Assembly: GCA_016936535.1 (NCBI GenBank)
Contig: JAFGXP010000017.1
Location: forward strand, 1-64,000
Length of the DNA: 64,000 nucleotides
Direction of reading: 5' to 3'
Source of the DNA: Thiotrichales bacterium
GTDB taxonomy: Bacteria; Pseudomonadota; Gammaproteobacteria; Thiomicrospirales; Thiomicrospiraceae
The notes beneath the pieces are model-generated. The model saw only the letters and a program-made list of their open reading frames with translations. It searched no databases and was not told the DNA's origin. Of this stretch, positions 1-21,686 are shown one piece after another (within the stretch, counting starts at the first letter, position 1; each line of letters starts with the position of its first letter). Both the position numbers and the translations under genes were made by a program.

Positions 1-687
1 GTAGCGGCTGAGATAGAGAATCGGCAAATCGAGTAATTCGGATAACACCAAATAGAGGATATTGAGAATACGCCCTGTACGCCCATTGCCATCGTAAAAC
101 GGGTGGATGGTTTCAAACTGATGGTGGATGACGGCCATTTTAATCAGTGGGTCAATGTCATCCAGCTCCGCATCATTGATATAACGCTCCAAATTGCTCA
201 GCGCATTGCGAATGTCATCTTCGTATTGCGGTGGGACAAAAATCACTTCGCCCGTTTGGTCGTTTTTGAGATGGGTGCCGCCCTGTTTGCGAATCCCCGC
301 ATCGTTTTTTTCTAAGATCGACTGGATTTGAACAATGTCTTTAACCAGTAGGAGTTTGTTATGGGTAACAAGTTCAAAGCCTTTTCTGAGCGCTTCACCA
401 TAGTGGCGCACTTCTTTAACCGCCTGGGAAAGGTTGCTGGCATCAATACTGGAACGGTAGAGATCATCGTGGGTGGTAATGATGTTTTCGATTTCACTGG
501 AATCTTTGGCTTCTTGCAATACTAAGGAGTTGATGAGCACCGCTTGATTGGGAATGCGTGCTGTCACACCATTGAGTCTTGCCAAAGCGGTATTGGCGGC
601 AATCGCTTTTTTGAGCACAGCCTTGGTTTCTAATTCATGCTGCAGTGGCAAGCTTGGCGGTATATAGCCTTGGATACTTGTCATCAT
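1..687 (-). CDS. Fic family protein (putative AMPylating enzyme), C-terminus cut by window edge
   Basis: The 229 visible residues contain the Fic signature HPFYDGNGRTGR at about residues 195-206. It has the catalytic His195, Asp199, and the two arginines (203 and 206) that bind nucleotide phosphates. The N-terminus resembles the Fic_N domain. At residues 63-68 it reads SSEIEN, which fits the inhibitory helix motif (S/T)xxxE(G/N) of class II Fic proteins, whose Glu blocks productive ATP binding. The family transfers AMP from ATP to a target protein hydroxyl; the target here is unknown. Two tandem ATG codons (687 and 684) are possible starts, and the first overlaps the preceding small gene as ATGA, implying translational coupling. 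The reading frame stays open to base 1, so the rest of the Fic fold and any C-terminal DNA-binding domain lie outside the window. The family assignment is firm; the cellular role is not. Confidence 0.9.
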   Translation of the reverse strand, partial: MMTSIQGYIPPSLPLQHELETKAVLKKAIAANTALARLNGVTARIPNQAVLINSLVLQEAKDSSEIENIITTHDDLYRSSIDASNLSQAVKEVRHYGEALRKGFELVTHNKLLLVKDIVQIQSILEKNDAGIRKQGGTHLKNDQTGEVIFVPPQYEDDIRNALSNLERYINDAELDDIDPLIKMAVIHHQFETIHPFYDGNGRTGRILNILYLVLSELLDLPILYLSRY

Positions 688-13970: not shown

Positions 13971-16478
13971 TTAGGCCAGTGTGCGTTTGACTTCAATGCG
14001 TTCATAGCACTCAATCTGATCACCAACCCGCACATCGTTGTAGTCTTTTACGCCGATACCGCACTCCATGCCTCTTTGCACTTCGTTGACATCGTCTTTA
14101 TAACGTCGTAGCGATTCTAAAACACCTTCGTAAATCACCACGTTATTGCGCAGTACACGAATCGGATTATTACGCTTCACATTTCCTTCAATGATCATAC
14201 AACCGGCAATCGCTCCAATTTTCGGAGCCTTAAAGACGTCACGAACATCGGCCACACCCAAGATCTGCTCGCGGAATTCTGGGGCCAACTTGCCTTCAAC
14301 CGCACGCTTCACTTCATCAACAATTTCATAGATGATGCTGTAGTACTTCAAGGCAATGCCTTCGCTGTCAATAATGCGCTTGGCTGAAGAGTCGGCACGC
14401 ACGTTAAAGCCGAAAATCAATGCTTCCGAGGCCAATGCTAAGTTTGCATCGGTTTCAGTAATGCCACCCACACCGGTTGCAATCACATTCACTTTGACTT
14501 CCTCGTTTGACAGCTTGGTCAACGCATCGGCAATCGCTTCAATAGAACCTTGAACATCCGCTTTCAGGATGATGTTGATATTCTGCACATCCCCTTCGGT
14601 CATTTTGTTGAACATATTGTCCAACTTAGACTTCTGTTGACGAGCAATCTTCAACTCTTTGTGCTTGGCTTGACGGAAAATCGCGGCTTCACGGGCTTTA
14701 CGTTCAGACTCAACCGTAATCATCTCATCGCCAGCGACCGGAACACTCGAAAGCCCCAAAATCTCTACCGGAATCGAAGGACCCGCTTCATCAACATTTT
14801 CTCCGGTATCGCTGATCAGTGCGCGAACTCGGCCATACTCCATACCACACAGGGCGATATCTCCCTTGCGCAGCGTTCCCGACTGCACAAGCACGGTCGC
14901 AACTGGCCCACGCCCTTTATCCAAGCGAGACTCAATAACCACGCCTTTCACTGGACCTTGGGTTGGCGCTTCCAATTCTAGAATTTCTGCCTGTACCGAA
15001 ATCGCATCCAAAAGATCATCTACGCCCATACCGGTTTTAGCCGACACGGGAACAAACTGGACGTCTCCGCCCCACTCTTCAGGCACCACTTCTTCAGCCA
15101 CTAACTCTTGCTTAACGCGCTCAGGATTTGCCGCTTCTTTGTCCATTTTGTTAATGGCAACCACAATCCCAACACCGGATGCCTTAGCGTGTTGAATGGC
15201 TTCTTTGGTTTGTGGCATGACGCCATCGTCCGCTGCAACCACAATCACCACCACATCGGTTACTTTCGCACCGCGGGCACGCATCGCGGTAAAGGCGGCG
15301 TGACCTGGGGTATCAATAAACGTTAACCCACCCATGCGGGTATCGACATGGTAAGCGCCGATATGCTGGGTAATGCCACCGGCTTCACCATGCGCAACTT
15401 TTGCGTTACGGATGTAGTCCAAAAGCGAGGTTTTACCATGGTCAACGTGGCCCATAATCGTCACAACCGGAGAGCGTTTGACCGTTGCCCCTTGGTAGTT
15501 CTGAGAAGTGACTTCATCTTCGATGGTAGTCTCATCATACGACACCGGTTTATGGCCCATCTCTTCCACAATCAACATCGCGGTTTCGCGATCCAAGACC
15601 TGGTTGATAGTAGCCATGGTCCCGAGCTGCATCATCATATATTTGATGATTTCGCCCGATTTAACCGACATGGCATCCGCCAAAACCGCAAGGGTGATGG
15701 TTTCTGGAATCAAGACTTCGCGCACAACAGGTGCGGTAGGCTTTTGGAAAGCGTGTTCATTGTGTTTTGATTTGTGGCGTTTGCCAGCACGGCCAAGACG
15801 TGATGGTCCAAGCTCATCGTCCACAACAAGTTGCTTGCCAACTTTTTTCTTAACCACCGCGACCTTTTTGCCTTTAGCGCCGTCTTTTTCTTGTGACAGC
15901 TCTCGCAGCTCTTGGTGCTTCTTGTCTTTTTTCTTTTTCGTGGCTTTGGAGTGATCCTCTTTCGGAGGTAAGGGCGCAACAACCGCCTCACCACTCTCTG
16001 CCGACCCTTGGGGTCCTTTTTCCTTCAATTCAGGTGCCTCGTCAGTTGAACTGAGCGCCTCGCTTGGCGCGGGGGAAGTTTGGGCATCCTCGATAAGAAT
16101 AGGATCCGGTGTGTTTAAGTGAGGCTCAGTTACCGCTTCTACTTCTAACTCAACCGCCTCTTCTGTCGGGGCATGCTCCTCTTTTTTGACATAGGTACGT
16201 TTTTTGCGTACCTCGACATTCACGGTGCGTTTACCACTACCGGAACCGGTAGATAAGTTTAAGGTTTGTTTGCGGCGAATGGTAACTTTTTTCGGAGCCC
16301 CTTCCGCACTCTCACCATGCAAACTCTTTAAATAGTTTAACAAGGTCAATTTTTCGTCTTCGGTAATCGAATCGCGTTCGGTTTTGCCTTTCACTCCAGA
16401 CTCATTCAACTGGGCCAGTAATTTTTCAACGGAAAGGTTGAGTGTTTCTGCAAATTTATTTATCGTCACTTCAGCCAT
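13971..16478 (-). CDS. infB: Translation initiation factor IF-2
   Basis: This 835-residue GTPase brings fMet-tRNA to the 30S subunit and promotes subunit joining. A short IF2_N domain opens the protein, followed by a long charged low-complexity linker to about residue 240. The G domain then shows GHVDHGKT near residue 344, DTPGH and NKMD. The C-terminal IF2 domains 2-4 complete it, including [11 protein letters not shown]. Charged-linker composition varies strongly in the family, and nothing here is abnormal. The gene starts 17 bp after nusA. Confidence 0.98.
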
Positions 16479-16495: not shown

Positions 16496-17983
16496 TTATT
16501 CAAACCAAGGCGCGCGGGCTTTCAAAATCAGCTCGGCCGCTTGGGCTTCATCCATGTCTAAGATATCCAGCAACTCTTCGGTCGCCAACTCAGCCAAATC
16601 TTCCTGGGTAATAACACCCTTCGCGGCCAGTTTTTTCGCCATCTCCATGCTCATGCCTTCAAGTTCAATCAGGTCTTGTGCGGGTTCGGCTAAGGCTTGC
16701 TTCTCTTCCTCGGCAATCGCCATCGTTAAGAGCGCATCCTTGGCACGTTGCTTAAGCTCCCCAACAATTTCTTCATCAAAACCGTCAATATCCAGCATTT
16801 CCGCCGCAGGAACATACGCAATCTCTTCCAAAGAAGTAAAGCCTTCAGCCACCAAGACTTCAGCAATCTCTTGATCCACATCCAAGTTATTAATAAATAC
16901 TTCCATCTGATCACGAGATTCCAACTCATGCTTCTGCGCCATTTCACTTTGCGCCATCACATTCAGTTCCCACCCAGTGAGTTCTGAGGCCAAACGCACG
17001 TTCTGGCCATTTTTACCAATCGCTTGCGACAATTGATCATCTTCTACCGCCAAATCCATGGTATGACGATCTTCATCGACCATAATCGAAGTCACCGCTG
17101 CCGGTGCCATTGCATTGATGACATATTGCGCATCGTTAGCATTCCAAAGAATGATGTCAATTCGCTCGCCATTGAGCTCATTGGTCACCGCTTGCACACG
17201 GCCACCGCGCATTCCCACGCAGGCACCAATCGGATCCAAACGTGGATCATTGGCACGCACCGCAATCTTGGCACGGAAGCCGACATCACGCGCCGCACTC
17301 ATCACATCGATTAGCTCATCGGCAATTTCTGGCACTTCAATCTTAAAGAGTTCAATAAGCATCTCTTTGCAGGCACGAGACATGAACAACTGTGGACCGC
17401 GAGGACGGAACTCAACCAATTGCAAATAGCCGCGAACACGATCGCCCATACGGAAATTTTCACGACCCACTAACTCATTACGTGGAATCACAGCATCCAC
17501 GTTATCGCCCATGTCCAAAATCACATCGCCGCGATCAATCCGCTTGACTTGACCGGTTAAAATTTCACCAACGCGCTTCTGAAAGGTTTCGACCACTTTT
17601 TTGCGTTCAGCTTCGCGGACTTTTTGGATAATGACCTGTTTGGCGGTTTGCGCGCCAATGCGGCCAAAATCAATGGATTCGATTTCTTCTTCAATAAAGT
17701 CGCCTACTTCTGAACCGGGCTTCTCATCCACCGCATCCATATGACGAATGTACCAGCCGACCTTGTCTTCAATGTAAACGTCATCTTCAATCACTTCCCA
17801 GCGACGGAAGGTTTTGTAATCACCGGTATGTCGATTAATTTCAACGCGGGCATCAATTTCATCATCGGTGTTGCGGCGAGTCGCAGTCGCCAGCGCACTC
17901 TCGATTGCTTCAAAAATGATCTCTTTGTCAACGCCCTTTTCGTTGGCCATAATCTCAACAACGGCTAATACTTCCTTGCTCAT
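16496..17983 (-). CDS. nusA: Transcription termination/antitermination protein NusA
   Basis: This 495-residue protein binds RNA polymerase and RNA and modulates pausing, termination and antitermination. The N-terminal polymerase-binding domain, an S1 domain ([17 protein letters not shown]), the KH domains ([14 protein letters not shown] and [16 protein letters not shown]) and two acidic C-terminal repeats ([15 protein letters not shown] and [15 protein letters not shown]) are in order. The tandem acidic repeats are typical of gammaproteobacterial NusA. It lies between rimP and infB in the conserved operon. Confidence 0.98.
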
Positions 17984-18109: not shown

Positions 18110-18562
18110 TTAGAATTTCGGGACTAGGGTCGCTTTTTCGATCTGATCGAAGGCAATTGTGTAAATTTCACCATCCACTTCCAATTCAATCTGTTGAGCA
18201 TCAACCTTCAACAGCTCACCCTTAAAGCGTCTACGCCCAAGGATGTCGGTGACGGTACGGACCTGAACCACTTGTCCTTGATACAGCGTAAAATGCACCG
18301 GTTTAAACAGCTGACGATCCATGCCGGGAGAGGAAACTTCAAGATGATAAGCACCGCTAATTGGGTCTTCCACATCCAAAATGGCACTGACTTGATGACT
18401 CACCTTTGCACAGTCATCTACCGTAATGCCACCGTCTTTTTCGACAAATACTCGCAGAGTCGAATGACGCCCTGCCGAGATAAACTCCAGCCCCCATAAA
18501 TCAAAGCCCATGGCTTCAATGGCAGGCGTGATTGCATGTTCTAATTTTTCTTCTAGTCTCAC
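18110..18562 (-). CDS. rimP: Ribosome maturation factor RimP
   Basis: This factor is needed for efficient 30S maturation. GRHSTLRVFVEKDGGITVDDC and SGAYHLEVSSPGMDR are the family blocks (key residues STLRV, DDC, EVSSPGMDR). I place the start at the GTG at 18562, which gives 150 residues, the usual length, and aligns its start with E. coli RimP. An in-frame ATG at 18616 or TTG at 18637 is possible. The latter lies in the T-run of a terminator and is very unlikely. The ribosome site is weak for all candidates, so the start is the uncertain part. Confidence 0.93.
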   Translation of the reverse strand: MRLEEKLEHAITPAIEAMGFDLWGLEFISAGRHSTLRVFVEKDGGITVDDCAKVSHQVSAILDVEDPISGAYHLEVSSPGMDRQLFKPVHFTLYQGQVVQVRTVTDILGRRRFKGELLKVDAQQIELEVDGEIYTIAFDQIEKATLVPKF

Positions 18563-18633
18563 CGAGGCTATCCATCTAGGGTTAAAAAAGCGATTCAAAA
18601 GTGCTTTTAAGGCCATTTCATTAGAGCCTAATA

Positions 18634-18716
18634 ACAAAAAACCCCGTAAAAACGGGGTTCTTTTAGGGTTTGAACGACTCCGAAAAGGAGCCGTTCAAGG
18701 CACTTTTAAAAAGAAT
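18634..18716 (-). ncRNA. Predicted short terminated RNA / attenuator leader of rimP-nusA-infB
   Basis: A near-consensus promoter (18723-18751) would start RNA near 18716. The first 25 bases are A/U-rich. A 12-bp hairpin follows at 18698-18670 (TTGAACGGCTCC paired with GGAGUCGUUCAA, one G-U). A second, intrinsic-terminator hairpin at 18659-18640 (ACCCCGT / ACGGGGT) ends in six T. The product would be an RNA of about 80 bases. If polymerase reads through, the same transcript would enter rimP about 75 bases later, so it could equally be an attenuator controlled by NusA level. I see no open reading frame in it. Both readings are inference from the sequence layout. Confidence 0.6.
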
Positions 18717-18722
18717 GCAAAG

Positions 18723-18751
18723 AGCATAGCCCCAAAGCAAAGACTTGTCAA
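18723..18751 (-). promoter_or_regulatory. Strong sigma70 promoter upstream of rimP
   Basis: TTGACA (18751-18746) and TATGCT (18728-18723) are 17 bp apart on the minus strand. The -35 box is a perfect match and the spacing is ideal. It is the best promoter seen in the window and begins directly after the exonuclease gene. Confidence 0.8.
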
Positions 18752-18775: not shown

Positions 18776-19423
18776 TCAGCATCGCTCATCCCCAAGCCGT
18801 TGCAGTTTGCAAAAAATCAGCGCTGTCATTAACGCATCATTAAAAGCCTGATGCTGCCCCAAATTAGGCAATTGTAAATCCGCTAAAATCGCAGAAAAGC
18901 GCAAATCCACACTTGACTGATAAATACCATGCCGCCAGTGCTTCGCTTTATGCCGATAATAAAGCTCGGAAACATCCAGTCGCGGATTGGGCAAACGCAC
19001 CCCGAGCCAGGGCTGAACAATTCTTTCAACCAGAGCAATATCAAAGGTTACATAGTAGCCGACCAAGGTCGCACCCTGAATAAAGTGCAAAAATTGGCTC
19101 ATGGCTTCTTGCTCACTGAGCAATGGCCCTTCCTGTAGCTGCAAATCCTGATTTCGAATTTGATGCACCTTAATGCTCTCCGGCGCAATTCTCTGCGGTT
19201 GCGCCAGCCACAACTCCAGTGCTTGACTACTGAGAATTTCACCCTCGCGGATTCGCAAGGCACTAAGTGTAATAATCCGATCCGTTCTTGGATTAAGACC
19301 GGTGCTTTCACAATCAAAACACACATAATCACCTGGAACGGTGGGCGTAAACAGGAAGGCGTAATTAGAATCTTTTAGCGACTTTATCTTGGGTAATTTC
19401 ATCAATCTGTGCCAAAACGCCAT
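18776..19423 (-). CDS. DnaQ-like 3'-5' exonuclease (DEDDh family)
   Basis: This 215-residue exonuclease shows YVCFDCESTGLNP near residue 35, where D-x-E binds metal. LVGYYVTFDIALV supplies the second Asp. HQAFNDALMTA near the C-terminus gives the H and D of the DEDDh set. It resembles the epsilon subunit of DNA polymerase III but lacks a polymerase-binding tail. It follows the DUF294 gene by 16 bp. From memory, this exonuclease commonly pairs with a DUF294 signalling protein in Proteobacteria. Substrate and role are not known. Confidence 0.9.
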   Translation of the reverse strand: MAFWHRLMKLPKIKSLKDSNYAFLFTPTVPGDYVCFDCESTGLNPRTDRIITLSALRIREGEILSSQALELWLAQPQRIAPESIKVHQIRNQDLQLQEGPLLSEQEAMSQFLHFIQGATLVGYYVTFDIALVERIVQPWLGVRLPNPRLDVSELYYRHKAKHWRHGIYQSSVDLRFSAILADLQLPNLGQHQAFNDALMTALIFCKLQRLGDERC

Positions 19424-21450: not shown

Positions 21451-21526
21451 TGGTGGGTCGTGGGCGATTCGAACGCCCGACCAATTGATTAAAAGTCAAC
21501 TGCTCTACCGGCTGAGCTAACGACCC
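21451..21526 (-). tRNA. tRNA-Lys (anticodon UUU), copy 2
   Basis: The 76-base gene folds into a full cloverleaf. The acceptor stem GGGTCGT pairs with ACGACCC, the anticodon loop is CTTTTAA with anticodon TTT, and the T-arm is GGGCG-TTCGAAT-CGCCC. CCA is encoded. It is identical to the copy at 21611-21686 and very close to E. coli tRNA-Lys. Confidence 0.98.
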
Positions 21527-21610: not shown

Positions 21611-21686
21611 TGGTGGGTCGTGGGCGATTCGAACGCCCGACCAATTGATTAAAAGTCAACTGCTCTACCGGCTGAGCTAACGACCC
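21611..21686 (-). tRNA. tRNA-Lys (anticodon UUU), copy 1
   Basis: Promoter-proximal copy of the tandem pair. All 76 bases match the second copy, including the encoded CCA. The 84-bp spacer between them shows no other gene, so both are probably cut from one precursor. Confidence 0.98.

Follow-up and report, generated by a model that had tools for sequence, protein, structure and literature searches.

What purpose is served by a promoter that is followed, some 80 nt later, by an intrinsic terminator when the next gene is rimP? The arrangement lies on the minus strand of the window (the whole 64,000-nt stretch of contig JAFGXP010000017.1 from a Thiotrichales bacterium that was analysed here), between the gene for an RNase T-type exonuclease (18776-19423) and rimP. 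The original prediction, made from the letters of this stretch, offered an independent small RNA or a NusA-responsive attenuator of the operon that makes NusA. Pfam identified the downstream products as RimP, NusA and IF2, in agreement with the rimP-nusA-infB operon named in that prediction, and our analysis indicates that the interval is probably a cis-acting transcription-attenuation leader of this operon. The features are listed in Table 1.

Table 1. Features of the rimP leader and its operon in the window
Feature	Position	Strand	Basis
-35 element TTGACA	18746..18751	-	sequence and promoter scan
-10 element TATGCT	18723..18728	-	sequence and promoter scan
Predicted transcription start, A	18716..18716	-	inferred from sequence, 7 nt after the -10 element
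P1 5' strand UUCUUUU (5' U-rich box)	18709..18715	-	pairs unbroken with 18664-18658
P2 hairpin, 12 bp, loop of 5	18670..18698	-	fold; covariation across the genus
P1 3' strand AAAAGAA, doubling as partner of the terminator U-tract	18658..18664	-	pairing analysis
Terminator stem-loop CCCCGTTTTTACGGGG	18642..18657	-	fold; CCCCG/CGGGG stem in 61/61 family genomes
Terminator U-tract T6	18636..18641	-	sequence
Partial match to RF01770 rimP leader (model 34-99 of 102)	18597..18661	-	34.1 bits, gathering score 47
rimP (GTG start at 18562), proposed regulated gene	18110..18562	-	ORF and Pfam
nusA	16496..17983	-	ORF and Pfam
infB	13971..16478	-	ORF and Pfam

The promoter had been called the best in the window. 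This holds for its complete TTGACA element, as the pattern TTGACA-N16..18-TATRNT occurs once in the 64 kb where 0.14 occurrences are expected (the spacer is 17 nt), but not for its score, since the 10 of 12 points are equalled by a plus-strand site at 17925 in a 15-kb scan. The hairpin and the complete terminator ahead of rimP were both found as described. P2 consists of 12 pairs, one of them G-U, and a transcript from A18716 to the end of the T6 tract is predicted to be about 82 nt long. A pattern-based terminator scan did not return the terminator at 18657-18636, which is seen instead in the sequence, in the fold and in the cmscan alignment. The fold of the 89-nt RNA has an energy of -36.1 kcal/mol against -15.9 +/- 3.4 for shuffled sequences (z -6.0; none of 200 shuffles was as stable). 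In the window's minimum-energy fold, AAAAGUGC and GCACUUUU also paired over a long range and so enclosed the entire leader; we rejected this as a shared feature because the downstream partner GCACTTTT is present in only one of 61 intervals, that of the window.

The family was sampled with 62 genomes. Among named RimP proteins the closest comes from Thiomicrorhabdus marina (72% identity). The window represents a Thiomicrorhabdus-like genus, sampled here by the window genome and 31 others. The region before rimP was fetched from the 61 genomes with a rimP match (G079 has none). All 61 contain the CCCCG/CGGGG terminator stem followed by T6, at 23-140 nt from rimP (median 44; at most 46 nt from terminator to start codon in 41 genomes); in the four genomes of genus g28 these distances are about 3 nt off, because the start codon used is one off and an ATG lies just upstream. 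A TTGACN-16..18-[CT]ANNNT site is present upstream in 54 of the 61. The U-rich box and the helix that it forms (P1) were found in 53 genomes from five genera, and 52 of these 53 also carry P2. In these 52, the window included, a -35/-10 pair at the same place scores 10-12 of 12 points, with the full 12 in 19 genomes. The original prediction had staked itself on relatives keeping hairpin or terminator, and the family genomes retain both to this extent. The recurrence of the layout in relatives is the strongest evidence that it is not a product of chance. Within the genus, 23 of 32 genomes share one and the same 27-nt sequence at rimP, running from CCCCG to GTTAT, whereas the infB-rbfA terminator, taken as a control at 30 loci of the genus, differs greatly in both stem and loop (judged by eye). 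Many genus members also have a palindrome around CCAGGCCTGG between infB and this variable terminator before rbfA (L183, L191, L193, L194, L195, L198, L200 and others).

Not every part of the leader is equally constant. In genera g2 and g28 (8 of the 61 genomes) the terminator is kept and no P1 or P2 is recognisable; the box was judged by eye, and both genera were left out of the P1/P2 analyses. In g2 the -35 element lies only 46-49 nt before the terminator, which begins about 10-15 nt past the predicted start. The P1/P2 switch is therefore not essential for the role of the terminator. The gene upstream of the leader varies as well. A relative of the exonuclease was found within the 1.0-1.5 kb fetched in 41 of the 61 genomes, and 12 of the 20 without it still keep a P1-type leader, so that the leader travels with rimP rather than with the upstream gene.

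P2 was found in all 52 genomes examined, and its stability lies at a z below -2 in 48 of them, measured against mononucleotide shuffles; the shuffles used for P2 stability and for the terminator comparison keep single-base content only. Among the 32 leaders of the genus (g1; 31 distinct), 13 of 14 P2 pairs have changes on both sides, and covariation over the whole structure is 0.287 against 0.121 in shuffled and at most 0.105 in slid alignments. In half of the P2 hairpins (26/52), though not in that of the window, one unpaired G bulges out of the 3' side 4-7 pairs up the stem. Compensatory changes are present in P2 and also in P1.

P1, which the original prediction had missed, is an uninterrupted helix of 7-11 bp between the 5' U-rich box and an A-rich strand just before the terminator, and it is found in 53 of the 53 P1-type genomes. 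The A-rich strand is the same one that zips with the terminator U-tract. Its sequence differs between lineages while the pairing is retained: UUCUUUU/AAAAGAA in the window and in genomes G019 and G026, UUUUUUAAAA/UUUUAAAAAA in most of the genus, UUUUCAA/UUGAGAA and UUUUCUGA/UUAGAGAA in genus g5, and UUUUUUAAG/CUUGAGAAA in genus g4. The change to UUCUUUU/AAAAGAA counts as one event, because the three genomes that share it form one clade in the RimP tree, and by inspection there are about five independent double changes in P1 overall. Cognate strands pair with a mean of -4.34 kcal/mol against -3.27 +/- 0.15 for permuted strands (0 of 10,000 permutations reached this value, with 35 distinct pairs and kinship ignored). 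An alignment made on sequence only (A2) comprised 49 of the 53 leaders; it left out G063, G064 and G068, which have a long P2, and G076. In this alignment double changes fall in 14 P1 cells, where shuffling gives 4.1, and the P1 score of 0.144 exceeds by a moderate margin both the 0.088 of shuffled alignments and the 0.114 of the best slide. The RNAalifold consensus of the 32 genus leaders did not predict P1 and assigned the A-rich strand to the U-tract, which fits a competition of P1 with the U-tract yet gives P1 itself no support. In G076 P2 is lost and P1 persists as a small hairpin; its strands were cut by hand and this genome was excluded from the P2, promoter-score, P1-alignment and strand-permutation counts. 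Upstream at this locus (L155) there is a sequence resembling a tRNA, which has a terminator of its own.

A triple helix of the 5' U-run, the A-rich strand and the 3' U-tract was considered and rejected. Such a triplex would need a parallel third strand, whereas UUCUUUU/AAAAGAA in three genomes fits antiparallel pairing.

Calculated energies place P1 and the terminator in the order expected of an attenuator. Before the terminator is made, P1 is predicted to be formed (mean probability 0.76, range 0.21-0.94), and once it has been made the extended terminator is more stable than P1 plus the terminator core in 53 of 53 leaders, by 0.2-6.3 kcal/mol in model energies. We propose the following route. 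The strong sigma-70 promoter would start a leader RNA that opens with the U-rich box, and this box would pair with the A-rich strand before the terminator, so that P1 closes over P2. Transcription of the terminator would let its CCCCG/CGGGG core form, and from then on the 5' box and the U-tract would compete for pairing with the A-rich strand. Capture of this strand by the U-tract would complete the terminator and release an RNA of about 82 nt, whereas persistence of P1 would keep the terminator short and allow more polymerases to pass into rimP. P1 would thus act as an antiterminator, and readthrough would be regulated.

Several observations count against this reading. The CCCCG/CGGGG core is not touched by P1, which may therefore weaken termination only slightly, and the terminator of the window looks strong and intact rather than tuned. 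P1 is also A-U rich and weak, its match of a U-run with an A-run is of low complexity in most of the genus, and a large share of the covariation comes from genomes that are related to each other. Attenuation is preferred over a small RNA because strong matches of the leader occur only at rimP, a -35/-10 scan shows no credible promoter behind the terminator and g2 has no RNA body. When a covariance model was run on the 53 P1-type genomes, its 53 top matches all lay just before rimP (E up to 3.4e-5), and the next match anywhere had 1.1e-4. The model was built from 32 of the 53 leaders, which match by construction, and the other 21 had no part in it; coordinates were compared by eye. In a class sample of 369 genomes it produced no strong match outside the family (best 4.2e-4), with filters strict enough to lose weak matches. 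A -35/-10 scan of the 61 intervals between terminator and rimP found no promoter-like site of at least 10 of 12 points, and sites of 8-9 points in 10 of them.

The regulatory input is a separate question. By analogy, autoregulation by NusA is our first candidate, held tentatively; what is known from Bacillus and E. coli makes this plausible, and another protein that reads P1/P2 would be the alternative. One such variant, which overlaps in probability with the attenuator itself, has the same device read by a cold-shock or ribosome-assembly protein and not by NusA. We consider it possible, at lower confidence than the NusA input. The infB operon of E. coli is cold-induced, with terminators t1 and t2 upstream of rimP (PMC6511841), and the bulged G in half of the P2 hairpins resembles a protein site, though the window P2 lacks it.

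The other half of the original prediction, a small RNA, is little favoured as the primary role. Here the gene of about 82 nt would have its own promoter, a 5' end closed by P1 and a terminator tail for Hfq, and its product would act in trans, the position at rimP being incidental. The promoter and terminator, the compact fold and the presence of Hfq in the genome are compatible with this, and the enteric rimP leader is itself listed among the ProQ-associated small RNAs derived from attenuators. A ProQ gene was not found in the genome, however, and strong matches of the element occur at rimP only. Furthermore, P2 is free to vary in sequence as long as its pairing is kept, so that a conserved seed could lie only in the box or the terminator, and the four g2 genomes keep promoter and terminator in a space too small for an RNA body. 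An independent small RNA is thus unlikely. A short terminated RNA would nevertheless arise as a by-product of attenuation, and a stable leader RNA may in this way exist.

Slightly less probable still is a plain terminator that insulates the operon from the upstream gene, combined with a strong promoter that is mostly read through, where P1 and P2 would just protect the 5' end of the mRNA or serve RNase III. The closed 5' end would suit such a role, and an RNase III site is indeed known from the rimP-metY interval of E. coli. An insulator would not be expected to stay where the upstream gene has changed, as this terminator does, and with the promoter upstream of the terminator the operon's own transcription would be stopped too.

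The predicted start in the family, a purine followed by a U-run (six in 39 of 52 genomes), resembles the UTP-dependent slipping starts of E. coli pyrimidine genes. The run measures 4-7 in all 52 and begins 8-11 nt after the -10 element, the starts being predicted. That the box is kept for UTP-sensitive slippage, as in the reiterative transcription at E. coli carAB (start GUUUGC) and upp (which requires a long T-A tract), is the least probable explanation, as the window, G019 and G026 have an interrupted run (UUCUUUUU) to which the partner strand has changed correspondingly, single interruptions abolish the carAB effect according to a review, and the pairing of P1 is left unexplained.

Attenuation in front of this operon is known from other bacteria, and the leader can be compared with these systems. 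At the gathering threshold Rfam returned two matches in the window, both tRNA, and at a loose threshold 17, of which only the minus-strand match to RF01770, the rimP leader, appears meaningful. The window minus strand carries two tRNA-Lys (TTT) genes at 21451-21526 and 21611-21686, 160 bases apart and with equal Rfam score, accompanied by a terminator at 21444-21412. The RF01770 match covers just the terminator part of the window leader and stays below the gathering score; only one of 62 family genomes reaches the cut-off, and the model also scores at many other sites in the same genomes. What is shared is the position directly upstream of rimP-nusA-infB and the intrinsic terminator CCCg...cGGG, present in 61 of 61 family genomes, which Naville and Gautheret (2010; PMC2965389) describe as the upstream terminator motif of the complex gammaproteobacterial rimP leader. 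The second, downstream GGGc...gCCC-U terminator next to rimP is found in none of the 61, in contrast to 13 of 18 genomes from other families of the class, and an initiator tRNA gene before rimP, present in 15 of these 18, is likewise found in 0 of 61. (The outside set comprised 18 of 21 genomes, as two had no rimP match and one was at a contig edge.) The same account calls the rimP leader the most widespread transcription attenuator, gives its general form without an antiterminator and proposes NusA as effector (PMC2965389). No larger conserved element is reported there for the general form, whereas the family leader has P1 and P2 as one. The leader would thus work like a rimP leader, to which it is related, yet it lacks two of its defining features.

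In B. subtilis, nusA (ylxS-nusA) is described as autoregulated by attenuation in its 5' leader (PMC12288461). There, too, a terminator lies between the promoter and the operon encoding NusA, but phylum and sequence are different, and the response to NusA has been demonstrated in B. subtilis whereas for the family leader it is proposed by analogy. The metY-rimP-nusA-infB operon of E. coli has promoters, then the t1/t2 terminators, then rimP, and its level depends on NusA (PMC6511841). The order is the same, but the E. coli leader includes the initiator tRNA gene metY, a further promoter (P2) and sites for RNase III, and the family has a structured RNA in the place of the tRNA. We also drew on PMC5391140, PMC6245113, PMC5955585 and PMC5371410; a search of the open-licence literature found no paper on this leader in relatives of Thiomicrorhabdus.

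A more far-reaching interpretation, which we offer as a rather speculative possibility, is that an ancient rimP attenuator was rebuilt in one family as an RNA switch not described before. It would have dispensed with both the initiator tRNA and the usual second terminator and would use its own first bases as the antiterminator strand. P2 would gate it by binding a ligand, be it NusA, a ribosome-assembly protein or some other molecule, and the 5' U-run might add sensitivity to UTP. Most likely, we are dealing with a real, family-wide leader of the attenuator type, the lineage's own version of a known valve for transcription and ribosome factors. As the competing helix is visible here with its compensatory changes, paired mutations would offer a simple test of the switch. 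The sensor of the rimP leader has so far been putative, and sensing by the rimP-nusA-infB operon becomes directly testable in this lineage.
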